In this document: piece by piece, positions 3,001 to 34,703 of the stretch
Numbering within the stretch: position 1 is the first letter of the stretch
Layout: the number at the start of each line of letters is the position of its first letter
NCBI GenBank assembly: GCA_017409905.1
Contig: JAFQRV010000002.1
Span: 1-45,767 of the forward strand
DNA: 45,767 bases
Direction: 5' to 3'
From: Bacilli bacterium
GTDB lineage: Bacteria > Bacillota_I > Bacilli_A > ML615J-28 > CAG-313
Notes under the pieces: generated by a model
Database searches by the model: none
Seen by the model: only the letters and a program-made list of their open reading frames with translations
Told to the model about the DNA's origin: nothing
Made by a program: the position numbers and the translations under genes

Positions 3001-6000
3001 TGTTGAAATTATTCATATGGTTTGTGAATTATTAAGAAATGAAGGATTAATTATGATTGGTGATATTACTAATGCAATCAATAATCCATTAGATTACTTA
3101 ACTAATGAAAATGCTATTAAGGTATTAGATATTGTTGATAAAGCTTTAGAATTAACAACTATTAAAGCTATGATTATTGATATCTTAGATACTCATGTAG
3201 CAGACTTATTACCAGAATCTCTTGCTGGTATTTACAGTAATGAAAATTATAGTTTAGATAACTTATACTCTGATTTACATAGCTTAATTAGTATTGCTAA
3301 AGAAGCTGTTTACTTCGATGTAATTAATATAGTATTCCATGAAGCTGAAATTGATTGGTCAAATACAGCTCCAGTTGAAGCTATTATTAAAGAAGTTTGC
3401 AAACTATTAATTATCAATAATAACTTAGGTTCATTCGTTGATTATATTAACGATAAAGATTTACCAATCGAATTAGTTCAAGTTAATGTTAATAATATTG
3501 ATTTAGCTGCTGATGGTGAATTATTCGCTGCTGCATACGCTATTGTTGCAAAAGCTATCTTCACACAAGATGCATTCCCTGTTCATTATTATAAAGACTT
3601 AACTTCACCTGACTTTGCTCGTCAAGCTTTATTAACAGATGAAAATATTAAGACTGTTATTGAAGCAATGCATTTAGTTGTTAATACAACTGTTGTTTAT
3701 GAAGCATCATTAGACATATTAAGAGCTATTAATAATGAATTAGTACCTGCAAGTGCAATGTTCATTATTCAAGATGCAGACTTAACTAAAGCTGAAGCTG
3801 TTGAAGATTTACATACATTACTTGATATTGCTGATATAGCAGTTGACTTTGGTGCAATCGATTATTATAATGCTGGTGTATTATACTTAATTCAACCTGA
3901 GTTCATTAGAAGCTTAATTGCTAAAGTTTATGATTTACATGTTCTTGAAGATTCTGAAACTAGAATTAGAGCTATCAATGCTGTTTTAGGCAAACTTGAT
4001 ATTGCTGGATTAGAATCAGTATCTGATTGGGATAATGAAGAAGCTGTAATGATTAGTTTAGTTGGTGATGTATGTGACTTCTTAGAAGAAAACAACATTT
4101 GCTACTTAGCTGATTTATTAGACTTCATTAGTTCTGGTTCATTTAAAGATGAAGAATTCTTAACTAAAGAAAATCTATATGCAATTTTAGATATCTTAGA
4201 AAAAGCTTCTGACTCTGAAGTAATCGCTCATGTATTAGCTGAACTTTACAATAGTAAAGCTGTTCCACAAATTGGTTACGAAGCTGTTATTGAATTATTA
4301 GAATTCGGTACAGATGAACGTGATTATAATAAAGAATTATTTGTTGAAGATATTAAACCTATTATTCAATTAGCTAGAAAAGCTGTTGACTTAGGTATCA
4401 TTGAATTATACTTTGATAGAGATGCTGAAATCCCTACTGCAAGTGTAATTAATGAAGTTCTTGAACAAGTATTCACATTGAATTTATTCGATGGACGTTT
4501 AGATTTATTTGCAGGCGTTGTATTCGGTAAATTAGGTGTTGAAGTTGACTTGACTGGTATTGATTGGGATAATGAAGTAGAAGTACTTTACAACGTTGTT
4601 GATTTAGTAATTCCTGCAGTTCATAATTCTGGTATCTTAAGATTAAGAGAGGCATTAGACGTATTAAGATTAGCTAAGAATGATATCGTATCATTCGTTA
4701 AAGATAATCGTACTTATGTAAACTTAGCTAATGCTTATGTTGGTATAGACGTATTAGAAGAATTAAGTAATTCTGAAGTATATATGAGATCATTATTAAA
4801 ACTTTATAATAGAGCTCAAGGTTTACTTCCAGAAGTAATTACTTCAAATATTGATATTAACTTATACTTAGAAGAAGAAATGCGTGCTGATTATCCAGTT
4901 ATTATTGGTATTATGAGAAATGTATTAGATTCAGGTGTATACCGTGTTCTTGTTGATAGAAGAGCATATGCATTCCCTGAAAGTGCTGTGGAACCAATTG
5001 AAGAAATTGTTGCTGCAGTATGTGATTTACATTTCGTTGCTCACTATACTGATGATATGATTAGAATTGTTGCTGATTTCTTAGGAATTGATGTAAGCAA
5101 TGCTAATTTAGAAGATATTAGTTTAGCTCAAGACAAAGAAGAATTAGTTTCTATGGTTGCTCCATTAAGAAATATCTGGTTAGCTTCAAATGGCTTAAAA
5201 GTAAATATTCCATTATTTGCTAATAAAGAATTATTTGAAAATATCAGTGTTATCTTAACTGCATTCCAAACAACTACATTACATAAAGTTCTTACTCCAT
5301 TTGTATACAATGAATATATGGTTGATATGATTTATACTATCGCTGATGCAACTGGTATTGAAATTTTATATGACTTAGCAGTATACACAGATGAACAAGT
5401 ATACGATGCATATAACGACTTAGTATTTGTATTCAATGAAATGATAGCTATGAACGTATTTGGTACTAGTGGTATTGATTTCACAGATGTTTCACACTTA
5501 ACAAATATTTATAATATTATGTTAAAACATGTAGCATTAGGTGATAACATTACTAAACACTTAGATATTATGGTAGCTAATAGTTACTTAATGGGTGTTA
5601 TCTATGTTCCATATGCTGAAGTTGCTTCAACTAGAACAGAATTAAGTACAATTAAACAAATCGCAGTTGCTGCATTAGATATTTTAACTACTTACTTAGG
5701 TGAAGTATCTACAAGTGATTTAAGTGTACTTGCAAATGATCAATTTGAACAAGATGTTATGGATTTATTAGATTTAATTGAAGATTCAGTATTATTATCT
5801 GAAACATTCATTCCATTAATTAATGGATTAGTAGATGCTAGATTAGGTGCCGATTATGCTGAATATGATGCTATTCCAGTAGCTACTTATGCTGAATTTA
5901 AAGATGCTGTTTCTCAAGTATTTGATATCGTTGATAAAGCCGATGAAGTTGGTATCTTATCTATGAATATTAAATATAAAGATACAGTTGGTATTGCTGA

Positions 6001-8542
6001 ATTATTCCACTTAATTGAAAATTGTCCATTTACAGCTGATCAAGAAACTATCCTTGTTAAGATTATGTTACGTGTAACTAAGATTTTAGATCCTGAAACT
6101 ATTGACTTAAGTCATATCATTTGGGCTGATGAATATCAATACATGTATGCATTCTTAGCAAAAGCTAACGCTCCATTAAATATGGATGGTGTAAATATTT
6201 CTAGTGATATTAAAGCTTCACTTTCTGATCCTGACTTTGTAAGACCAATGACAGATGCATTAAAAGAATTAGCTGCTTCTCATGTATTAGTTGCATTCTA
6301 CGAAGAAGTATTACAACAAATCGTTGCAGATAAGTATCCATCAATTACTGATTATCTAAATTATGATCATTTAGATTCATTAGGATATGATGAATATGCA
6401 GAAGCTATTCAAGGCGAATTCGTTAAAGCTCTTGATGCTATGGCATTAGCTTCTGAAGTTGGATTATTAGCAGAGGATTCATCAGTTGTTAATGTTGATA
6501 CATTATTAGCTTTATATGATAATATCTTCGCTTTAGAAGGTACTAGATATACTAAACCTGAAATATTTAATAAACTAGTTACTGTATTACCAGCTATTGG
6601 TGGTGAAACAGTAGTTCCTGAAGATATCGATTGGGATGCTGAAGTAATTGCAGTTCGTGGTATTATTGAAGCATTAGGAGGATTTGCTGATGTTGATGGT
6701 AACATCAATAAAGATCAAGTAAATGACATTGCTACAAGTTCTACTGATGTTGCTGCTTTAGAACAATTATTCACAGCTCTTAATAGATCTCAAATCTATC
6801 GTCCTTCATTCTATAACTTAGTTAATGATCATATTGATGAATTTGGTACTGGTGATCTTGCTATGCCTCAATTCTTAACTGAATGGTTCAAAGAACAAGA
6901 AACAGGTATGAGACCAATTGCTGAATGGGAATCAGAAGTTATCTTACTTGCTAGATTAGTTGCAATCGTAAATAATCTAAGAGCTAACAATGCTGATTTT
7001 GCTAACATTAAAGATATCGAATTAGGTGTAGTTGATTCAACAAATGCTGCTGAAATCGCAACTGAAGACTTCCATGTTGCTGATTATGGTCTAAGACAAT
7101 TATTACAAATCATTGGTGCTTCTAAGTCATTCACTTTAACTGCATTAAATAATGTATTTGAAAATGTATTAATTGACAGAACTGCTGATGGTAGTGGTAG
7201 TGGAATTATTAAGACTGATAAACATATTGCTGAATTAACAGAAGAACAATGGATTGCTGAAATCGATGATATCATCGTATTATTACAAGATGTTCAAACA
7301 TTAGGATTATTAGATAGTAGCGATGCTATGGCTTCTCAATTAACTCAACTTTCAGCTGATGAAGTTGCTAAGTTAATTAAGTCATTCAACCACTGTGAAC
7401 CATTACGTTACTTATTACCAGACATGATCGCTGATGCATTAGAAGAATCTCATGCTAGTGATTATAAAGCTGAATGGTTAACAGCACAATGTGGCACAAC
7501 TGATGGTGTAAATAATCCGATGGCTAGTGAAGAAGAATGGGATGCTGAAGCTGAAAAATTAGCTGAAATCATTACTCATTCTGAAGCCTTTGACTTCAAT
7601 AATTTAGTATTAAATAACTTAACAAATGATCAATTAGATACTTTAGAAGACTTATTATTAGCAATTAATGCATGTCAATCTTTAGTATTAGATCCAATGG
7701 TTGATACAATTAATCAATTATTAGATGCTCAAGGTTATGAAACTAAAGTTCTTGGTGTATTTGATGGACCTGATGCAGGTTCTTCAAATACAGAAGAATG
7801 GGCAGATGAAATTCCAACATTAATTTCAATCGTTAAACAAATCAATAATGGTTTAGGTATTAGTTCTGATATCGTTAAGAATAATCCAGAAGATTTAGGC
7901 GTATTATTAAATACAATGAAAGAATCTCGTTTATTCGGTAATGATGTTAAACATGATGGTACAACAACAGTAACTGATAATGTTTACAACACTTTAGTTT
8001 GTGAAATATTAGAAACTACTAAGTTAATTAAAGATCCAGCTAATCCAAATGGCTTTATTGACAAAGCACAAGCTTATAGTACTGATTGGACAATCTATAA
8101 TTGGGAAACAGAATTAGCTATTATCAAGAGTTTTGATACTGCTGTTGGTACTCAATCTGATGATACAATTAAAGTTCTAGCAAGCTCACAAATCATTAAA
8201 GATTTCTTTGATATTGCATCAATCATTAATGATAAGGTTGACGGCGTTTCAATGACTATCGATATTGTAGTACTTGGAATTCCTTATCAAGCAACATTGT
8301 CATTAGGAGATTATGTTTCTGGATATCCATTCACTAATGATGAATTAAGAGGATTAGATTGGGCTCAAGAAATTGATGATATGAACGCTATTGTTGCTAT
8401 ATTCGACGCTGGTTATAGAACAGGATTCAGAGCAGACTTAGAAAACTTAATCGCAACAGGTCATGACACAATTGCTGTTAATACTGCTGCTGCATTAAAA
8501 GCTAAGTTCGTTGCTGATGGCGTATGGAGTTATTTAGCTTAA
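1..8542 (+). CDS. Giant acidic alpha-helical repeat protein (5' partial)
   Basis: The frame is already open at position 2, and the residues before the first Met (position 17) match the repeat found again near 1090, so the true start lies upstream. At least 2846 residues are visible. The protein is rich in D, E, I, L and V, poor in Lys, Cys and Trp, and looks almost wholly helical. Repeats of roughly 180-360 residues can be followed by a helix motif (V/L-E-D-[MIL]-x3-I-x2-[AL]) and by a Trp motif (D/I/E-W-[DNA]-x-E-[VAI]), with Trp at codons near 98, 1181, 1856, 2414, 3356, 4028 and 4565 and closer together towards the C-terminus. There is no C-terminal membrane segment or LPxTG. I do not recognise the family. 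A secreted or surface scaffold/adhesin is an inference; the signal-peptide region is outside the window. Its many ATC, TTC and AAC codons resemble those of rpmE and malic enzyme, which may mean high expression. An intrinsic terminator follows the stop. Confidence 0.85.
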   Translation, partial: SLVEDMNNIIEALHQVVDFNVLGIVLRDEHIEWNNTDPITNLIETIFSLNYLDVKLDDIFEYVSDNIVDLYAVDQESINLVSDGKLIAEAVRIIMAEIMATGIIPVYKLSDLEELVIYREEVLTREVLHTALDAVQCIVDTTLVKAAVNFVNDNYVNIVPEDFQFIFETGITGDELHEDLSSVVAISRAIIDSELYNLIIEEDFALAGISTQINAILDDILHLNIVTINTAYVLQNALLLAGIEVSYDELSKVDYDVDYAKIYEIISIVEYMLVNNMDVETYFALEEFIAELGAMENIIDNKQIVSNSNLHQVLYILSNVVNTQLFSAIFDEVYEQVINPMFEGLEPTYMALTDLSNYSVELLVEDMNNIIEALHDVVDFNLLGILRDDEVIDWTNKAAVQNVITSIFSSNYVEIKADAIVDIIVSMVDLLADYEVAIDFANDGQLIANIYGHIADIMNECVKVNTISGMKEINKVSQYIDDTSAAYIVKILRETAEFSFLPLVIEIAFDKLIEALPEELAFLANPGTAGIEGIVEDYSSIIDIIEILVNAKVAGALFQDENINVMLETEVDEIIDILFGLNYIDLDNASNKLEKLLEYGIDNIDSSYVEYFDADMIDWDYEVNTTIKNIVAEIFDIIAINTDGTSDGCENYLANLTANGSFDLRLFLSISNANILLNIVEDILDSTIIDATAEVIYEVLIDKLQTTDFAFLLEDITPSMLLDDVSTILVSVRNMVNDNMIPMVLDFIKDVDNTDLIPVIRSALDELPNILSVKVLSMHKNDLVKYLVDRLELDDTYLDYEAIVWAEETQIITEVLHILVDMLEESNVRTIQALLSIIEAGEFLSDVRIVNNPNLTSFVSILAVLTESNLVAELVIPAYDKYVIPIVEGLESEAIREFLTINYTNYSASMFKEDFATLVDLLEDLDNDKLLVKVIDLANLIDTEIIYADAFENIARHMYELHLIKDRTVSIHKVICELIGIEYENINSEIIDTDADLEVVVEIIHMVCELLRNEGLIMIGDITNAINNPLDYLTNENAIKVLDIVDKALELTTIKAMIIDILDTHVADLLPESLAGIYSNENYSLDNLYSDLHSLISIAKEAVYFDVINIVFHEAEIDWSNTAPVEAIIKEVCKLLIINNNLGSFVDYINDKDLPIELVQVNVNNIDLAADGELFAAAYAIVAKAIFTQDAFPVHYYKDLTSPDFARQALLTDENIKTVIEAMHLVVNTTVVYEASLDILRAINNELVPASAMFIIQDADLTKAEAVEDLHTLLDIADIAVDFGAIDYYNAGVLYLIQPEFIRSLIAKVYDLHVLEDSETRIRAINAVLGKLDIAGLESVSDWDNEEAVMISLVGDVCDFLEENNICYLADLLDFISSGSFKDEEFLTKENLYAILDILEKASDSEVIAHVLAELYNSKAVPQIGYEAVIELLEFGTDERDYNKELFVEDIKPIIQLARKAVDLGIIELYFDRDAEIPTASVINEVLEQVFTLNLFDGRLDLFAGVVFGKLGVEVDLTGIDWDNEVEVLYNVVDLVIPAVHNSGILRLREALDVLRLAKNDIVSFVKDNRTYVNLANAYVGIDVLEELSNSEVYMRSLLKLYNRAQGLLPEVITSNIDINLYLEEEMRADYPVIIGIMRNVLDSGVYRVLVDRRAYAFPESAVEPIEEIVAAVCDLHFVAHYTDDMIRIVADFLGIDVSNANLEDISLAQDKEELVSMVAPLRNIWLASNGLKVNIPLFANKELFENISVILTAFQTTTLHKVLTPFVYNEYMVDMIYTIADATGIEILYDLAVYTDEQVYDAYNDLVFVFNEMIAMNVFGTSGIDFTDVSHLTNIYNIMLKHVALGDNITKHLDIMVANSYLMGVIYVPYAEVASTRTELSTIKQIAVAALDILTTYLGEVSTSDLSVLANDQFEQDVMDLLDLIEDSVLLSETFIPLINGLVDARLGADYAEYDAIPVATYAEFKDAVSQVFDIVDKADEVGILSMNIKYKDTVGIAELFHLIENCPFTADQETILVKIMLRVTKILDPETIDLSHIIWADEYQYMYAFLAKANAPLNMDGVNISSDIKASLSDPDFVRPMTDALKELAASHVLVAFYEEVLQQIVADKYPSITDYLNYDHLDSLGYDEYAEAIQGEFVKALDAMALASEVGLLAEDSSVVNVDTLLALYDNIFALEGTRYTKPEIFNKLVTVLPAIGGETVVPEDIDWDAEVIAVRGIIEALGGFADVDGNINKDQVNDIATSSTDVAALEQLFTALNRSQIYRPSFYNLVNDHIDEFGTGDLAMPQFLTEWFKEQETGMRPIAEWESEVILLARLVAIVNNLRANNADFANIKDIELGVVDSTNAAEIATEDFHVADYGLRQLLQIIGASKSFTLTALNNVFENVLIDRTADGSGSGIIKTDKHIAELTEEQWIAEIDDIIVLLQDVQTLGLLDSSDAMASQLTQLSADEVAKLIKSFNHCEPLRYLLPDMIADALEESHASDYKAEWLTAQCGTTDGVNNPMASEEEWDAEAEKLAEIITHSEAFDFNNLVLNNLTNDQLDTLEDLLLAINACQSLVLDPMVDTINQLLDAQGYETKVLGVFDGPDAGSSNTEEWADEIPTLISIVKQINNGLGISSDIVKNNPEDLGVLLNTMKESRLFGNDVKHDGTTTVTDNVYNTLVCEILETTKLIKDPANPNGFIDKAQAYSTDWTIYNWETELAIIKSFDTAVGTQSDDTIKVLASSQIIKDFFDIASIINDKVDGVSMTIDIVVLGIPYQATLSLGDYVSGYPFTNDELRGLDWAQEIDDMNAIVAIFDAGYRTGFRADLENLIATGHDTIAVNTAAALKAKFVADGVWSYLA
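2..1210 (+). repeat. Near-identical repeat copies within the giant gene
   Basis: The first ~100 bases (from position 8) and the segment starting near 1091 are almost the same DNA. Both encode V-E-D-M-N-N-I-I-E-A-L-H followed by V-V-D-F-N and a D/E-W motif about 20 residues later. They are two units of the long protein repeat; units further downstream are diverged and recognisable only at protein level. Confidence 0.8.
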
Positions 8543-26067: not shown

Positions 26068-27792
26068 ATGTTAGAAAACTATAGCCCTCAAGCTGTAAAA
26101 CTGATTGAATGTGCAGAAGATATTGCTGAAAAAGAACATAAAAAGTTAATTGGTACAGAACACCTTTTACTCGCAATGTTTAATACAGAAGACACAATAT
26201 GTCATTTTCTATTAACTGAAGAACAAATTACTAAACAAGAATTGATTGATGAAATTAATTTAATTAACAACAATTCTTATTCTTTAGAAAATTCGAAATT
26301 TACATTAAAATTTAATGAAATAGTAAAAAAAGCAAGTGATGCAACTAAAATATTTAAAACCGAATATGTTTATGATGAACATTTATTTTATACTCTTTTA
26401 AATGATGAAGAAAATAATGCTACTAAAGTATTGATTAATTTAGGAATAGATCCTAAAGTTATGATAGAAGATATACTAGATATGTTTAATGTAAAAAAAG
26501 AAAACATTGAAAGTTATGATTTCCTTACTAATCTTACTGAATTAGATACGGTTCATCCATTTATTGAAAGAAGTAATCATATTGAAAGATTAAATGTTAT
26601 TCTAAATAAAAAACAGAAAAATAATCCAATGTTAATTGGGAGCGCTGGAGTTGGAAAGACTGCATTAGTTGAAGGATATGCAAAAAAATATCCTGAGGTT
26701 CCTATCTATAGATTTGAATTAGGTAGTGTTGTTGCGAATACTAAATATAGAGGAGAATTAGAAGAAAAGATCATTAAAGCAATGAACTTTATAAAAGATA
26801 ATAATGCTATTTTATTTATAGACGAAATACATAATATTGTAGGTGCTGGTTCTAATGAAGGATCTTTAGATATCGCTAATATATTAAAACCATATCTTGC
26901 AAGAAATGATATACATTGTATAGGCGCAACAACACTCGATGAATATTATAAGTATATTGAAAAAGATAAAGCATTAATGAGAAGATTTCAAAATATATAT
27001 ATTGATGAACCAGAAATAGATGAAGTTAAGAATATTTTAAATAAAATTAAAAATAGTTATGAAGAGTACCATAATATTGATATTTCTTTAGACATTATTA
27101 ATTATATTGTTCAAAAGACAAACCAATATTTACCTAATAAAACTTTTCCAGATAAAGCCATAGATGTATTAGATGAGTTAGGTTCAAGATCTAGATTATG
27201 TGCTGAATCAAGTGACTTTTATAAAGTCATAGATAATATAATAAGAGACTTAAGTGGAATTAGTTTCAAAGAAGAATATGCTGATTTAAACTATGAACAA
27301 TTAAAACCATATTATGAGAACTATATAAATGGTAATAGTATTGATAAACCAATAGTAACAATTAATTCATCCAAGACTTTTAAAATTAAAAAGTTAATTG
27401 AAGATTTGAAAAAAATATCTTCTTTTAAGATGGAAAATTTTTTAGAATTAGATTTAGAAAATTATTACGATTTTAGTAGTATAAATAGTTTGATTGGTTC
27501 TACAAAAGGCTATGTTGGTTATGATAGTGGAGGATTATTATCTGAACAAATTATCAAGTATCCATATAGTTTAATATATATAAAAAACTTGAATAAAGCG
27601 CATTTTACTATCCAAAATTTTATTAAAAAATTGATTAATAATAATTTTTTTATAGATAATAAGGGAAGAAAAATATATATAAATAATACTATTATAGTTG
27701 TTCAAGATACTAATTTAACAAAAAAAACTATCGGATTTATAGAAAATAAAAACTTAAATTTAAACAAAAACAATTATGATATTACCTTGTGA
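26068..27792 (+). CDS. Clp/ClpC-like ATPase with degenerate, truncated second AAA domain
   Basis: 574 residues versus ~810 for ClpC. The N-terminal double Clp-N domain is at ~1-145. The first AAA module is complete: Walker A G-S-A-G-V-G-K-T near 191, Walker B I-L-F-I-D-E-I-H near 250, and R-R-F with the arginine finger. The second module is recognisable (L-I-G-S-T-K-G-Y-V-G-Y-D at ~476, then K-A-H, and N-T-I-I-V-V) but lacks Walker A altogether. Its Walker B position reads L-I-Y-I-K-N-L-N without the D-E pair. The protein stops soon after I555-G-F, which aligns with the ClpP-docking loop; sensor 2 and the small subdomain are gone. No D2 remnant follows, so this is not a recent frameshift. A strong GGAGG precedes the start. 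Partner and substrate are unknown. Confidence 0.9.
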   Translation: MLENYSPQAVKLIECAEDIAEKEHKKLIGTEHLLLAMFNTEDTICHFLLTEEQITKQELIDEINLINNNSYSLENSKFTLKFNEIVKKASDATKIFKTEYVYDEHLFYTLLNDEENNATKVLINLGIDPKVMIEDILDMFNVKKENIESYDFLTNLTELDTVHPFIERSNHIERLNVILNKKQKNNPMLIGSAGVGKTALVEGYAKKYPEVPIYRFELGSVVANTKYRGELEEKIIKAMNFIKDNNAILFIDEIHNIVGAGSNEGSLDIANILKPYLARNDIHCIGATTLDEYYKYIEKDKALMRRFQNIYIDEPEIDEVKNILNKIKNSYEEYHNIDISLDIINYIVQKTNQYLPNKTFPDKAIDVLDELGSRSRLCAESSDFYKVIDNIIRDLSGISFKEEYADLNYEQLKPYYENYINGNSIDKPIVTINSSKTFKIKKLIEDLKKISSFKMENFLELDLENYYDFSSINSLIGSTKGYVGYDSGGLLSEQIIKYPYSLIYIKNLNKAHFTIQNFIKKLINNNFFIDNKGRKIYINNTIIVVQDTNLTKKTIGFIENKNLNLNKNNYDITL

Positions 27793-27835
27793 TTCCTTCA
27801 TTTTTACCTTTTTTCTTTTATAAAATAACATTTCG

Positions 27836-27844
27836 TGTTATAAT
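27836..27844 (+). promoter_or_regulatory. Extended -10 before the DUF4011-helicase gene
   Basis: TGTTATAAT, 23 bases before the start at 27867; no clear -35. It would make the downstream operon independent of the Clp-like gene. Confidence 0.7.
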
Positions 27845-27866
27845 AAGAAATAACAATGGTGATAAT

Positions 27867-30800
27867 ATGAAGTCATATAGAAAAACAAATTTTCGTATAC
27901 AACAACGTAATCAACATTTAATAAATATCTTAGAGGAAGATTATTATATTGAATTAGGTACAATTGATATTCCTGTTATGGATAAGCTTTTAAATGGTAG
28001 TGTTATCGACTTAAATGAATTAATTTATGAAGACATTGCTATTGAGGGGACAGGAAAAGTATTTGATAATTGTGATCAAGATCTTAAATATCAATTGTTA
28101 TTTTTAGAAAGCCTACGATATAAAAATACTTCTAATAAGATTTTTTTGACGTGCGGTGTATTACATTTTAAATTACCACAAGAAAACAATTATTCATACG
28201 CTCCAATTGTTTTAATTCCAGTTGATATTGATTATGAAAATAATAAGGTTACAATTGCTTCATCACCAATAATCAATACAATTCTAACTAATAAGATTCA
28301 AGCCTCACTAGGTATTAGTGCGGATACTTTACCACATAATCCTGAAGTATATCAAATTACTAATTACTGTTTGAATTATGCGGAAAAAACAAATTTTGAA
28401 TTTTCAATGGGAAACTATCTAACAGTATCTTCTATTGAATATAATGAACATGCTCCATCATATGATGATTTATCAACACAAAGATCAATTTATGAAAAGT
28501 CTGTAAAAGAAGTACATGATTTGTTCTATCAAAATATTAAAGCTGTTCTACCTACTAATGTTTATCAAAAATGGGCATTGGTAAAAATTGATAATGGTGA
28601 AAGTTTTGTTGTTGATGGTGCCTTAGGTAGTGGAAAAACATATACTATTGTTAATGCTTTAGCCGATTCAATTCTTAAAAATAAAAAAGTCTTATATGTT
28701 TCCCAAGACTTTGACAATATTAAAGATATGTATAAAGAATTGAATAATATACAAGCTTCTAGTTATACATATAATCTTTCTAAAAACACAATATATGAAA
28801 AACTAGAACCAGAAGATATTCCATCAATACGTGATGAAAAAGTAAGTGCAGAAACTTTATCTCAAATATTAGAATATGAACAAGCATTAGAATCAAGTAT
28901 TCATGGTTGTCGCTATTTTAAAGTAATTACAAAACTTGCGGAAATTAAAAATACAATACCTGATATTGTTAAAATACCAATAGATGTCAGTTTACAAAAT
29001 CACGAAATACAAAAAGTATATAATGAATTAAAAGAAATCGAAGAAATTTTAGAAACAATTGAACCTTTAGACATTAATGTTTGGTCAAAAGTAGAACAAT
29101 ATTACGCAAAGAATCATATTAAAGAAATTAGTGAAGCAACACAAAGATATGCAAATATTATTAAGACATCAAATAGAGCATTAAAAGCATATTGTAATAA
29201 GTATTCTATAAACTTACCATCTAATTATTTAAATGCTCAAAGACTATTATCATATATATCACCTTTTACTAAGATTACACCACCTAAGTGTTGGGTAAAA
29301 AGATATGATTCAGATAAGATAAAAGAAATATTAAATGTTATTAGTAATTATCAAAATACAGATAAAATAATCAAACAAGTTTTAACAGAAAAACTTGTAG
29401 TTGATTATCAAACTGGTGAAGTAGAAGAATTACTAAATGTGTTATGTTATAAACATTTAACTACTAATAACTTTGAAGAATTAAATAATATTTTGAAAAA
29501 GAATGATTTAATAAACGAAATATTATTAACAGTAAAAACAGAACAAAAAAATATACAAGACATTATTAACAAATTAAGATTTAATTTAGATTTAGATAAA
29601 TTTGAAAAGAATGAAATTGAATATTTTACTAAATTATATGATTTATTAAAATATACTAATATTTCTTCTTTATGGACGACATTCTATGTAAAAAATCGTA
29701 ATCAAATTGATGAAATATTTAAGACTTTTGAAAATTTATTACAAAAATTTAATCAGATTAAAGAAATATTAAAACCTTATTTAATTAAAGAAGATAGTTT
29801 AAGTTATGATAATATTAAGCTAACTTTAAAAGATCGTAATTATATAAAATCTATCCAAGACTTGTTTGATAAAAAATCAACAAGAAAAAATAAAATATCT
29901 TCTTCTACTTTAAATCATCAATTTTTAGAATTATTTGATTTAGGTCAGAAAATTGAAACAGAAGCTAAAAAATTTGGATTGCTAGATAACTTATCTTTAG
30001 ATAAATTTATTTGTTATTTTTCAAATTGGATTGATTTTATTAATAATCTTACAGATAGAGAAAGAATTATATTTAGACATCAAATTACTCATGATGACAA
30101 AACAATCACTCAAAATGATTTCATTGTTAGTTTATTTGAGAAATTTGATAGATCTAGAAAGATCCTATTAAAGAATTATAGTTTATTATCTCAATTTGGT
30201 ATTAACATTAAAGGTGATACAATTGTCGAAAAAACATATGATTCTTTAGATTGGTTGATTTATTTAAGAAAAGTAGTTCAAGCAAATGATAGGTTAAGAG
30301 TTTTATTTAAAAATACTACTCCGACACTAGATGATATGATAATAATTATTAATACTGATAAAGAGTATGTTAATTTATTAGAAAATCTTGATAAAGATGC
30401 AAACGAAATGAAGAAATACTTAGGAGAAACGTATAAAGGTTTAGATACTGATTGTATGTTAATAAGTGTTTTGGAAAACAACTATGGCTTATTTTTAAAA
30501 CAACTAAAAGATGAGACTGTAATTGGCAAATTATTTGAAAATAATTTAATAAATGATTTAATTAATGAATTTGGACCACTACATTCACTTATTGAAAAAA
30601 GATTAAGTGAACATAATTTGTTTAGTAGATATTTTGTTGGGGGACAATATGATTTACTAACATGTTCACTCAATGAATCACAAATAATAATTAATAAATA
30701 TGAAGAAAGAATAGTAGAAATTAGACCAGTATTCCAAGTATTTGAATATTTACATCGTTTTGAAAAACTAGGCCTTAAACAATTATGTGAAATAATTTTA

Positions 30801-32159
30801 AGTGCTCAATATTCTAAAGGTATTGGTGAAATATTTATTTATTCTATTTATTCTGACTATCAAAATGAATTAATTAATAAAAATCCAATTTTATTAGAAA
30901 GTAATAATATTTTAACTTGGATAGAGAATTTTAATTTCTTTGAAAGAAATCATTGTCAAATTAATATTAGAAGCTTACAAAGAAATAAAGTGACTTTAGA
31001 AAAAAGACTTGTTAACCATATTACAAATTTAAAATTTAATGATTACAATAAAATTGTTGATGCTTTGTTACCATATAAGAATGTTTTCTTAGCAGATGTT
31101 GATATATTTAATAGTGATTTAGATTTATCTAAGTTTGATATTGTATTTATAGATGATGTTCATTTGTCTTCAGCATTTAAATACAATAGAATTGTTCAAA
31201 CAAAACAAGTAGTTATGTTTGGTACATCTACAAATAAATCTATTAATAACAATAATTTGTTTAAAAACATTCCAAATAAATATATATTAAGATTTGTACA
31301 AAGTTATGTGAAAGATAACCCAAGACTAGGCAATAATCATAATATTAAAAATCAATATATTTTAGATTTTAGTAGAACAGAAAGCTTTAAAAAGTTTAAA
31401 ACATTAAAAGATCTTGTATCAACTATCGTAGGTAATTATTATACTGATATGACAAAAACTTTTGATATTATTTTTAATTCAGTTAGTTATAAATTTGCTT
31501 TCTATAAAAGACTTGTTGAAAAGTTAAAAGAAGTAAATAGTGATGAAGAAATATTCCAAATTCTAAATAATAATATTCGTATGGTTAGAGTACCATATGA
31601 AAAGTCAAAAGTCGTTGATGAAGTTTATTACTTATTTGATGATTTAAAAGATTTAGATATTCTTCAATTAAAATATATTATTCCTAATTATGCTAGTGGA
31701 TGTTCTAAAGTAAATGTGTATACAACTAATGAATATTCTAATGATTTTAATGCAACACAACTTTTTAAGAGTATTATTGAACACGAAATAGAAGGAACAC
31801 AAATGCCTCCACTCACAAAAATTATATGTGATGAATTGAAAGAAAGAGGAATTTCTGCTGAGGCTGGTATTGGTAGAATTGATTTAATGATTAAAGGTGG
31901 AAAGTCTAAAACAAATGAATCTATTCCTAATATTGGTATCATTATTGAAGGACTAAATACTAAAACTCCTTATTCTATTTTGGACGATTATGAATATTAC
32001 TACAATGAATATACTAAAAAAGGATGGCAAATATATATCTTCTATGTTGGAGATATAATTGACAACCTACAAGAAAAACTAGATATTATTTCTCAATTTT
32101 TGGCAAATAAAGACTCTCAGTCAATGCATCAATTAAAAATAGATGAGTTTATTAAGTAG
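27867..32159 (+). CDS. DUF4011 / SF1-helicase-like / Vsr-like protein with degraded motifs
   Basis: 1430 residues. Residues ~1-190 match the DUF4011-type N-domain (L-T-C-G-V-L-H-F ... Y-A-P-I-V-L-I-P-V). Walker A is G-A-L-G-S-G-K-T near 251-258 with K-K-V-L-Y-V-S-Q after it. A ~800-residue helical region follows. Motif II is near 1091 as D-I-V-F-I-D-D-V-H instead of DEAxQ, and motif III is V-V-M-F-G-T-S with no GDxxQ; the second RecA lobe is very short. The C-terminus (~1310-1430) resembles the Vsr-like nuclease domain of such helicases: G-R-I-D-L-M-I near 1337, then I-I-I-E-G and K-K-G-W-Q-I-Y. GGTGAT before 27867 sets the start over an in-frame ATG at 27789 that overlaps the Clp-like gene. 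Related intact proteins have been linked to phage defence; this copy may have another role. The ankyrin gene follows 6 bases later. Confidence 0.72.
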   Translation: MKSYRKTNFRIQQRNQHLINILEEDYYIELGTIDIPVMDKLLNGSVIDLNELIYEDIAIEGTGKVFDNCDQDLKYQLLFLESLRYKNTSNKIFLTCGVLHFKLPQENNYSYAPIVLIPVDIDYENNKVTIASSPIINTILTNKIQASLGISADTLPHNPEVYQITNYCLNYAEKTNFEFSMGNYLTVSSIEYNEHAPSYDDLSTQRSIYEKSVKEVHDLFYQNIKAVLPTNVYQKWALVKIDNGESFVVDGALGSGKTYTIVNALADSILKNKKVLYVSQDFDNIKDMYKELNNIQASSYTYNLSKNTIYEKLEPEDIPSIRDEKVSAETLSQILEYEQALESSIHGCRYFKVITKLAEIKNTIPDIVKIPIDVSLQNHEIQKVYNELKEIEEILETIEPLDINVWSKVEQYYAKNHIKEISEATQRYANIIKTSNRALKAYCNKYSINLPSNYLNAQRLLSYISPFTKITPPKCWVKRYDSDKIKEILNVISNYQNTDKIIKQVLTEKLVVDYQTGEVEELLNVLCYKHLTTNNFEELNNILKKNDLINEILLTVKTEQKNIQDIINKLRFNLDLDKFEKNEIEYFTKLYDLLKYTNISSLWTTFYVKNRNQIDEIFKTFENLLQKFNQIKEILKPYLIKEDSLSYDNIKLTLKDRNYIKSIQDLFDKKSTRKNKISSSTLNHQFLELFDLGQKIETEAKKFGLLDNLSLDKFICYFSNWIDFINNLTDRERIIFRHQITHDDKTITQNDFIVSLFEKFDRSRKILLKNYSLLSQFGINIKGDTIVEKTYDSLDWLIYLRKVVQANDRLRVLFKNTTPTLDDMIIIINTDKEYVNLLENLDKDANEMKKYLGETYKGLDTDCMLISVLENNYGLFLKQLKDETVIGKLFENNLINDLINEFGPLHSLIEKRLSEHNLFSRYFVGGQYDLLTCSLNESQIIINKYEERIVEIRPVFQVFEYLHRFEKLGLKQLCEIILSAQYSKGIGEIFIYSIYSDYQNELINKNPILLESNNILTWIENFNFFERNHCQINIRSLQRNKVTLEKRLVNHITNLKFNDYNKIVDALLPYKNVFLADVDIFNSDLDLSKFDIVFIDDVHLSSAFKYNRIVQTKQVVMFGTSTNKSINNNNLFKNIPNKYILRFVQSYVKDNPRLGNNHNIKNQYILDFSRTESFKKFKTLKDLVSTIVGNYYTDMTKTFDIIFNSVSYKFAFYKRLVEKLKEVNSDEEIFQILNNNIRMVRVPYEKSKVVDEVYYLFDDLKDLDILQLKYIIPNYASGCSKVNVYTTNEYSNDFNATQLFKSIIEHEIEGTQMPPLTKIICDELKERGISAEAGIGRIDLMIKGGKSKTNESIPNIGIIIEGLNTKTPYSILDDYEYYYNEYTKKGWQIYIFYVGDIIDNLQEKLDIISQFLANKDSQSMHQLKIDEFIK

Positions 32160-32165
32160 GTATTT

Positions 32166-32681
32166 ATGAAGACAAAAACACAATTTTTTCAAGAATTAAT
32201 TAGAGAAATAAAAGATAAACAATGTAAAGCATCAAAAATTAAGAAGATAATTCATGATTTAAAGTTAGTAAATATTGATGTTAATAGTAAAAGATATCGT
32301 GGTAGAACATTACTTCATTACGCAGTAAAATATCAAAATAATAAAATTATTAAAGTGTTAATTAAATTAGGAGTAAATCCTGAAATATGTGATGATGATT
32401 ATAATACTCCACTTCATTATGCGGTAACATTAGGTAAAATTGATTCTGTTATTGAATTGTTAAATAATGGTGCTAATATTAATGCAACTGGTGAATTTGA
32501 ACAAACATCATTACATTTAGCTATTACAACAAATAATTTAGAAATTGTAAAAGTTTTGATTGAAAGAGGTGCTGATCAAGAATTGGTTGATGAAAAGAAT
32601 TTAAGACCTATTGATTATGCAATTGATGAAAAGAATCAAGAAATTATTGAATACTTATCTTTGAGAAAAGGAGGAAACTAA
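32166..32681 (+). CDS. Ankyrin-repeat protein
   Basis: 171 residues, no signal peptide, so cytoplasmic. A Lys-rich helical N-terminus (~1-45) is followed by about four ankyrin repeats: R-T-L-L-H-Y-A-V, N-T-P-L-H-Y-A-V, Q-T-S-L-H-L-A-I, and a last weaker L-R-P-I-D-Y-A-I. Ankyrin repeats mediate protein-protein contacts; the partner is not visible. It is tightly packed between the DUF4011-helicase gene (6-base gap) and cdaA (1-base gap), so the three are probably one transcript. Confidence 0.92.
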   Translation: MKTKTQFFQELIREIKDKQCKASKIKKIIHDLKLVNIDVNSKRYRGRTLLHYAVKYQNNKIIKVLIKLGVNPEICDDDYNTPLHYAVTLGKIDSVIELLNNGANINATGEFEQTSLHLAITTNNLEIVKVLIERGADQELVDEKNLRPIDYAIDEKNQEIIEYLSLRKGGN

Positions 32682-32682
32682 A

Positions 32683-33504
32683 ATGTTATTTGGTAAAGCA
32701 ATTTTAGGTTCTCAATTATTAGGAAGACTTGTAGAAAAAATCCAATTTTATATTGAATATCAAGGATTACCAAAGTTTATTATTGAAGCAGTAATTCTAT
32801 TATTAATCTTTGGATTTATATTATATTTCTTATATCGTTATACAAATAAGAAATGGTTAACATTTAGCATTATTTTCTTTGTTGCATTATTTGGTGTAAC
32901 TGTATTACTAAATTTAACTTACATATATAAGATTTATAAATACTTAGTTTTAATATATGCATTTGTATGGGCAATGTATTTTGCACCTAATATTAAGAAC
33001 GTATTTGAAGGTTTAACAAAACCTAAGAATGTTAAAAACTTTGTAAACAATGAAGAACAACAAAAAGTTTTAATTGATACTTTAATTAAAACTGTTACAC
33101 ACTTATCAGAGCGTCAAATTGGCGCAATCATTACAATTGAAAAAGAAGATTCATTAAATACTTATATCGCAAAAGGAACACACTTAAATTGTGAAGTGTC
33201 TTGTGAAATCCTAGAAACTATTTTCATGCCTGGTACGGCTTTACATGATGGTGCTGTTATTATTAGAGAAGATAAAATTATGAGTGCTGGTTCATTCTAT
33301 CCAACTAGTGAAACAACAAAGATTTCAAAAACATTGGGTTCACGTCACAGAGCAGCACTTGGTATTAGTGAAGTAAGTGATGCATTCACAATAGTTGTAT
33401 CTGAAGAAACAGGTAATATTTCAACTACTCATGAAGGATCACTTACAACTGTTACAATTGATGGTTTACAATCTTTCTTAAAACAACATATTATTGTTAA
33501 GTAG
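32683..33504 (+). CDS. cdaA: Membrane diadenylate cyclase (c-di-AMP synthase)
   Basis: 273 residues: three N-terminal membrane helices (~35-105) and a DAC domain. The two catalytic motifs are intact: D189-G-A and R221-H-R, in L-H-D-G-A-V-I-I and L-G-S-R-H-R-A-A-L-G-I-S-E. The enzyme makes c-di-AMP from two ATP, a second messenger for potassium and osmotic balance and cell-wall control. A full AAAGGAGG precedes the start. In Bacillus cdaA is followed by cdaR and glmM; here neither follows. Instead there is a membrane protein with PAS-like domains, which may take the regulatory place. Confidence 0.95.
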   Translation: MLFGKAILGSQLLGRLVEKIQFYIEYQGLPKFIIEAVILLLIFGFILYFLYRYTNKKWLTFSIIFFVALFGVTVLLNLTYIYKIYKYLVLIYAFVWAMYFAPNIKNVFEGLTKPKNVKNFVNNEEQQKVLIDTLIKTVTHLSERQIGAIITIEKEDSLNTYIAKGTHLNCEVSCEILETIFMPGTALHDGAVIIREDKIMSAGSFYPTSETTKISKTLGSRHRAALGISEVSDAFTIVVSEETGNISTTHEGSLTTVTIDGLQSFLKQHIIVK

Positions 33505-33512
33505 GTGATTAT

Positions 33513-34703
33513 ATGTTATTTAGTATTGCACAAACATACTCACTTGCCGCACTAATTATTGCGTTAGTTGTAATTTTATTATTAGTTATATTTAAAAATG
33601 TATATTATCGAAGAGCTTGTAAAATTGAATACTTAGGTTTTGGTATCATTTGTGTAATTTATGTAGCATTAAAATTATTAGTTAAACAACCAATTGTGAA
33701 AGATATTGTTTCAACAGTTTTATTAATTGGTTTAATTGTATATTCTTTAAAAGATTTATTTGAAAAAGAAGGAATTAAAAATGCTTTTCTTAATAAAGCT
33801 AATAATTTAATTAAAAATGCTCAATTTGATTATTATTATGCAAGTAATAACAAAGATATCATTATCGACTTTTCTGAATCATTCACAGAATTGACAAGAT
33901 TAACTCCAGCTGAATTATATGATACATTAGGATTTCAAACAATACTATCTAAATTATATATTACTCATATTAATGGAGAAGATATAACAAGTTCTATAGC
34001 GTTAAAGTTAAATTATGATTATTCAGAAGTTGAATTCACAAAACAAACTGCTTATTTTGAAATGTCAATTACCGATAATAATGAATCATTTGATTTATTA
34101 GGTGTTGTTGAACCAATCTTTTATAAAAATAAATTTATTGGAAGAAATGTTTATTTTTCAAAAAACAATAAACACACTTTAAATAAACTACAACAAGGTT
34201 TAACAGATGCATATAATGTTATTAAAGATGATAGAGCTCAACTATATGTAATGATGTCAATGATGAAAGATGTTGTTTTATACTACGATTATAATACAAC
34301 TACATATATTATGACTGAAACTATCGCGAAAGCTCTAAACTTAAATCAAAGAGAATATTCAATAAATGAATTTGTAGAAATGATTCATCCAAATGATATT
34401 CAATATTATCAAGAACAAAGTAGTGTTATTGGTTCACTTGAAGTAACAAGAATTAAATATCGTTTAAAACTAGGACTTGGTTATTATTATGTATTTGAAG
34501 ATGCAATGTATTTAAATAGAGATGGTAAATTGATTTCAATTATTCATTTGGCGAATTACACACCTAAGGATGAAATAAAAGAAGAAGAATCTGAAGAAAT
34601 AGTCGAATCAACTAAAGAAGTAGTTAAAGAAAAACCACAAGTTGATTACAAAGAAAAATTAGAAGATACAATGAAGGTATTAGAAAAATTATTAGGTGAA
34701 TAA
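33513..34703 (+). CDS. Membrane protein with two PAS-like domains, next to cdaA
   Basis: 396 residues. Three membrane helices cover ~8-90 (one just after a short periplasmic start), then two PAS-like sensor folds: ~105-220 (D-Y-Y-Y-A ... L-T-R-L-T) and ~240-350 (V-L-Y-Y-D-Y-N ... I-H-P-N-D-I, R-Y-R-L-K-type strands, and L-N-R-D-G-K-L-I-S-I). The tail is an acidic/Lys-rich linker with a last helix. No kinase, GGDEF or EAL domain follows, so it is a sensor or adaptor rather than an enzyme. It sits 8 bases after cdaA and overlaps ispDF by 1 base (TAATG). Role as a regulator of CdaA is inferred from place only; I do not recognise a named family. Confidence 0.78.
   Translation: MLFSIAQTYSLAALIIALVVILLLVIFKNVYYRRACKIEYLGFGIICVIYVALKLLVKQPIVKDIVSTVLLIGLIVYSLKDLFEKEGIKNAFLNKANNLIKNAQFDYYYASNNKDIIIDFSESFTELTRLTPAELYDTLGFQTILSKLYITHINGEDITSSIALKLNYDYSEVEFTKQTAYFEMSITDNNESFDLLGVVEPIFYKNKFIGRNVYFSKNNKHTLNKLQQGLTDAYNVIKDDRAQLYVMMSMMKDVVLYYDYNTTTYIMTETIAKALNLNQREYSINEFVEMIHPNDIQYYQEQSSVIGSLEVTRIKYRLKLGLGYYYVFEDAMYLNRDGKLISIIHLANYTPKDEIKEEESEEIVESTKEVVKEKPQVDYKEKLEDTMKVLEKLLGE

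Follow-up and report, generated by a model that had tools for sequence, protein, structure and literature searches.

The gene at positions 26068–27792 (+) of the window, the whole 45,767-nucleotide stretch of DNA that was analysed, encodes a 574-residue ClpC-like protein in which only one of two AAA modules has an ATPase site. As judged by sequence comparison, the first module (D1) was intact, the nucleotide site of the second (D2) was absent, the pore loop and IGF tripeptide of D2 were kept, ClpP was present alongside, and descent from ClpC was likely. Hexamer formation, docking on ClpP, unfolding by D1 alone and degradation are inferences. We consider it probable that this protein, hereafter stripped ClpC, is a ClpP-docking unfoldase driven by D1 only, with D2 as a passive pore-and-docking collar, the docking and the D1-only unfolding being the inferred parts. 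We lean, only slightly, towards the further proposal that this unfoldase with a working D1 ring and a nucleotide-free D2 collar is now the sole ClpP unfoldase in a family without ClpX.

The open reading frame was intact. Pfam models matched Clp_N twice (from residue 16), AAA at residues 188–310 in D1, AAA_lid_9 at residues 318–397 and AAA_2 only partially, at residues 443–546 (positions 19–122 of the 166 in the model); the closest solved relatives of the protein were ClpC chains. The Clp_N double-repeat domain (PF02861; residues 1–140; 26068–26487, +) was a helical bundle in the AlphaFold2 model. D1 (residues 153–398; 26524–27261, +), with the sole ATPase site, contained the Walker A motif GSAGVGKT (G191–T198; 26638–26661, +), the Walker B motif ILFIDE (residues 248–253, including D252–E253; 26809–26826, +), the arginine fingers R305–R306 (26980–26985, +; assigned by sequence comparison) and a KYRG pore loop. 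The D2 remnant (approximately residues 420–550; 27325–27717, +) consisted of the large-subdomain helices and four strands. Its P-loop stretch was rewritten, leaving no Walker A motif, and K506–N507 (27583–27588, +) stood at the position of the Walker B D-E pair. The pore loop GYVGYD (residues 481–486; 27508–27525, +) was kept, as was IGF (residues 555–557; 27730–27738, +) at the position of the ClpP-docking loop. A tail of 17 residues followed (27739–27792, +; pLDDT <50) before the stop codon after residue 574, and sensor 2 and the small subdomain were absent. A preliminary description of this DNA had assigned all ATPase motifs to the first module and, to the second, no Walker A, K-N in place of the acidic Walker B pair, no sensor 2 or small subdomain, a retained GYVGYD and an end just after IGF; each of these features was recovered.

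Motifs were counted in 43 near-complete stripped members and 46 normal Clps. The D1 Walker A lysine, Walker B aspartate and glutamate, both arginine fingers and the pore tyrosine were each present in 43/43 stripped members. Across 26 relatives, the D1 motifs were invariant at all but two positions, the final Walker A residue (T or S) and the KYRG lysine. In D2 of the 43 stripped members, the Walker A, Walker B, sensor-1 and arginine-finger positions were unconserved and the catalytic Walker B glutamate was never found (0/43), whereas normal ClpC had the D-E pair in 46/46 cases. Sensor 2 and the VIGQ box were deleted. The coiled-coil M-domain was gone as well, the linker from PDKAID to D2 measuring 37–47 amino acids versus approximately 112–121 in normal ClpC. 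Only six D2 columns were invariant among 36 members: G477, G481, Y482 and G484 (the last three in the pore loop, which read GYVG or GYIG in every member), D530, and G556 of IGF.

The IGF glycine was present in all 44 readable sequences and was followed by F (38), Y (3), L (2) or I (1). The triplets were IGF (18), VGF (6), LGF (4), MGF (4), TGF (3), IGY (3), VGL (2), AGF (2), LGI (1) and KGF (1), and the columns on both sides were hypervariable among stripped members. To judge from the alignment, an invariant glycine amid hypervariable flanks is the pattern expected of a hook for docking that is carried by a flexible loop. Most relatives carried a fast-evolving tail of 60–90 amino acids after IGF, which is probably what is left of the D2 small domain, reduced in size and lacking sensor 2. 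The earlier statement that no D2 remnant follows IGF therefore holds for the window protein and six other members, not for most relatives. The seven tailless members (G000, G001, G004, G018, G020, G034 and G044) required four changes on the D1 tree, and each shortened protein ended 0–18 residues past IGF. That the protein was trimmed repeatedly as far as IGF, but never into it, speaks strongly, if circumstantially, for selection acting on IGF. Between close pairs, the dN/dS of the D2 remnant was 0.02–0.20, close to the D1 value; the tail after IGF was looser, with values up to 0.8 in one genus.

In a protein search of 60 relatives, full-length homologues with 38–66% identity came from the same family and order and from other families of the class. 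D2-remnant profiles gave a clean separation: no stripped member scored below 144 bits in one search or 156 bits in the other, and ordinary D2 modules reached 112–113 bits at most. Two class-wide searches with different profiles returned the identical 45 of 395 sampled genomes, from 24 of 192 genera in five families (f1, f2, f4, f8 and f21); a phylum-wide draw gave matches only within the class. The class search added 18 members from f8 and f21, and every one proved stripped when its sequence was read. In a deeper draw of f21, 18/55 genomes were carriers (six of those sequences were unread) and 37/55 had no match to stripped ClpC. A scan of genome contigs yielded mainly normal ClpC or ClpA sequences. 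The carriers are mostly uncultured Bacilli, and one relative was a Bacilli metagenome-assembled genome from a roe deer cecum (L051).

The missing D2 motifs and C-terminus might still point to a decaying pseudogene or an assembly artefact. We give this next to no credence, since it is refuted by conservation: five families share the architecture, the frames are open and the D2 remnant evolves under the low dN/dS given above. No carrier had a full-length D2 in this gene, and a misassembly joining two genes was excluded by the recurrence of the same layout in 45 genomes, the truncation being conserved in relatives. The earlier proposal of a stable one-engine variant rather than decay is thus strongly supported by the conservation in five families, the low dN/dS of the D2 remnant, the grouping as one clade on the D1 tree and the syntenic chromosomal locus.

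In an AlphaFold2 monomer model based on an alignment of 48 sequences (mean pLDDT 80), the D2 remnant folded as strands 1–4 plus helices, with block means of approximately 70–89; strand 5 and the small domain were missing. IGF lay at its usual location, in a disordered loop following strand 4, and not away from the ClpP face, a placement that would have counted against the preliminary description. Since this loop was disordered in the monomer model (pLDDT <50), the docking geometry can only be presumed. The best fold matches of the model were ClpC chains of ClpC–ClpP complexes, among them the Staphylococcus aureus MecA–ClpC–ClpP complex (9gi1_f; 441 columns, rmsd 4.3).

The stripped proteins formed one group in the D1 tree, with long branches and an SH-aLRT support of 93 (threshold 95). 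The nearest intact sequence was a compact ClpC of an uncultured Firmicutes (SI.B24; L097, positions 5986–7947), placed tentatively because of its long branch, and possibly an intermediate towards the stripped form. In f8, the gene was followed by radA and, a short distance on, by ispD and ispF (clpC-radA-...-ispD-ispF). This matches the order in Bacillus subtilis, clpC-radA-disA-yacL-ispD-ispF, and the f8 position is the ancestral clpC locus. In f1, f2 and f4 the clpC neighbourhood was altered, yet ispDF was still near: the usual order was stripped ClpC, a helicase-like protein of 1280–1456 amino acids, an ankyrin protein, CdaA, mostly at least one further gene, and IspDF or IspD-IspF. Given the f8 order and the nearby ispDF in f1, f2 and f4, the stripped protein is regarded as the ClpC of these Bacilli, despite failing two defining ClpC features, namely two functional AAA modules and the M-domain. 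It met other ClpC traits (the Clp_N double repeat, an IGF, VGF or LGF loop after D2 strand 4 and the f8 neighbourhood) and not those of ClpB (a ClpB M-domain, no IGF), and the true ClpB paralogues differed from it. Descent from ClpC is likely on this comparison.

Directly downstream in the window was a P-loop helicase-like protein of approximately 1440 amino acids (ProA/PDC-S37/DUF4011-like; 27789–32159, +), conserved at this place in f1, f2 and f4, followed by a conserved cluster of an ankyrin-repeat protein and the diadenylate cyclase CdaA (32166–33504, +). Up to position 34703, the ankyrin protein, CdaA and a protein that no Pfam model matched (its counterparts in relatives had GGDEF/PAS) formed a fixed cluster with stripped ClpC. 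The helicase-like protein showed a weak likeness to the anti-phage proteins ProA and PDC-S37. A defence-island operon, considered on account of matches to ProA, PDC-S37 and IetA, was rejected: the NCBIfam scores fell far short of cut-off, and HflX, Dus and IspDF mark the locus as housekeeping. The Walker A motif of the helicase-like protein was degenerate in f4 (L044, L046) and its C-terminal part had nearly no invariant residues; judging by these sequences, it may also be losing its motor. A very large open reading frame of 2841 amino acids was located at the contig start (17–8542).

In f1, f2 and f4, stripped ClpC and the helicase-like and ankyrin genes stand in a conserved order, which would fit a chaperone or remodeller that works with these operon neighbours independently of ClpP and uses IGF for another contact. 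However, at the f8 and most f21 loci these neighbours were absent or different and IGF was still kept, and the ClpB paralogues of the same genomes, which act without ClpP, lacked IGF. Such a role appears rather improbable to us.

A ClpP gene was found in 44/45 carriers, including 35/35 good-quality ones, and the ClpP sequences read contained the catalytic Ser, His and Asp. A normal ClpC, which the preliminary description had proposed to look for elsewhere in the genome, was absent from all carriers in a search for the D2 small domain. The other double-ring Clp in carriers was ClpB, without IGF in every case read. A companion Clp of 700–725 amino acids was ruled out as a normal ClpC or ClpE, being a ClpB that lacks both the N domain and IGF; such ClpB proteins lacking the N-terminal domain occurred in many genomes of the class (L131–L141, L227–L238). 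MecA was absent in 32/32 genomes tested; this is in keeping with the missing M-domain and suggests a different control.

Most f1, f2, f4 and f8 genomes also carried a ClpX that had IGF or a closely similar motif, so ClpP does not depend on stripped ClpC in most genomes outside f21. The ClpX of the window genome had IGF. The idea that ClpX had lost IGF in this family was therefore dropped; the ClpX of G001 had IGL. Phenylalanine-to-leucine changes in step between the docking loops of ClpX and stripped ClpC were seen in G001 only (IGL and VGL, respectively) and not in G004 or G005.

In f21, no ClpX reached the cut-off in any of 55 genomes, the one weak match coming from a contaminated assembly, and the other weakly matching AAA proteins that were read were not ClpX and had no IGF loop. 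This apparent absence throughout the family was unexpected for Bacilli outside the Mollicutes. All 12 f21 carriers tested for ClpP kept it. With ClpX missing and ClpB devoid of IGF, f21 carriers, which conserve ClpP, have no recognisable IGF unfoldase other than stripped ClpC. Three genomes (G018, G252 and G347; loci L203, L204 and L205) encoded a protein of 605–610 amino acids with a single intact ClpC-like D2 AAA module, an unrelated N-terminal part and no IGF. In the f21 genome G553 (genus g118; 1.115 Mb, nearly whole), in which the stripped gene was absent, ClpP, ClpX, ClpB and Lon were absent beyond weak local matches, and Dus and IspDF were found. This agrees with a joint loss of stripped ClpC and ClpP, in a single reduced genome. 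G553 seems also to have lost HflX together with these proteins.

The presence of ClpB in most carriers, and of ClpX in most of those outside f21, leaves room for stripped ClpC as a regulator subunit in mixed hexamers with either protein. We regard this as very unlikely, because neither partner was universal (ClpB was not found with PF10431 in G001, G004, G044 and G056, which are 93–97% complete, and ClpX was missing from f21) and D1–D1 pairing across different clades is not expected. Docking on ClpP is inferred without biochemistry and is well supported indirectly, by IGF in all members, ClpP in all good-quality genomes and the lack of another IGF unfoldase in f21.

The favoured D1-driven unfoldase would have started as a ClpC that lost the coiled-coil M-domain and the second ATPase. 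Six subunits would assemble via D1, and the D1 ring alone would bind and hydrolyse ATP and thread substrate brought by the Clp_N domain. The D2 remnant would form a nucleotide-free collar, with its tyrosine pore loop lining the channel and its IGF hooks hanging down to dock on ClpP. In ClpA, D2 is the principal motor, while D1 is auxiliary, improves processivity and serves as a back-up (PMC9663308). Stripped ClpC would thus have kept the weaker motor, and D1 alone may unfold only weakly; the protein may handle loosely folded substrates. Our main doubt concerns assembly. Mycobacterium tuberculosis ClpC1 no longer oligomerised when deletions reached into its D2 small domain (PMC3527473). The window protein lacks this domain, so it cannot be taken for granted that it forms hexamers.

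The loss of both the main motor and the D2 small domain, with no D2 feature other than the pore loop kept as well as IGF, could also be read as docking without threading, the protein acting as a gate-opener, plug or adaptor of ClpP and binding ATP in D1 for assembly only. We hold this to be unlikely, as the retention of the D1 Walker A motif, the Walker B glutamate, the arginine fingers (43/43) and both pore tyrosines points to hydrolysis and threading.

Whether D1 alone can drive unfolding, and what a dead AAA ring contributes, are aspects of ring specialisation usually studied with engineered mutants. Evolution ran that one-motor experiment in these Bacilli, and its result was kept over many genera; this offers a minimal docking module found in nature and allows ring specialisation to be tested directly where only a single ATPase ring works. 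For proteostasis, an annotation as 'ClpC' in these bacteria would not equal a normal ClpC. Searches of an open-access literature collection, subscription journals being outside our scope, yielded no description of a double-ring Clp with a nucleotide-free D2.

Compared with ClpC, the class I Hsp100 known from B. subtilis as ClpC/MecB, stripped ClpC has the same Clp_N domain, D1, pore loops, IGF-type loop and, in f8, locus, but it lacks the M-domain and the Walker motifs, sensors and arginine finger of D2, its D2 small domain is shrunken or absent, and there is no MecA in the 32 genomes tested. The compact 654-residue ClpC of L097 likewise has no M-domain and carries an LGF loop, whereas its D2 Walker A, Walker B and arginine finger are still there. 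ClpX also combines one working ATPase ring with IGF docking; it is, however, just one ring, of the HCLR clade, and its N domain binds zinc, while in stripped ClpC the working ring is of the D1 type and IGF sits on a separate dead module. ClpA resembles stripped ClpC in its two AAA modules, the absence of a long M-domain and an IGL/IGF docking loop, yet both of its modules are ATPases, with D2 as the main motor (PMC9663308), and the stripped D2 has no nucleotide site; if our preferred reading is true, stripped ClpC inverts this arrangement, with D1 rather than D2 as the motor. The nearest named class is ClpI of the Actinomycetota, likewise a genome-defined ClpC-like class, with members with and without an LGF motif, but ClpI has both ATPase modules intact and an M-domain (PMC10149685).
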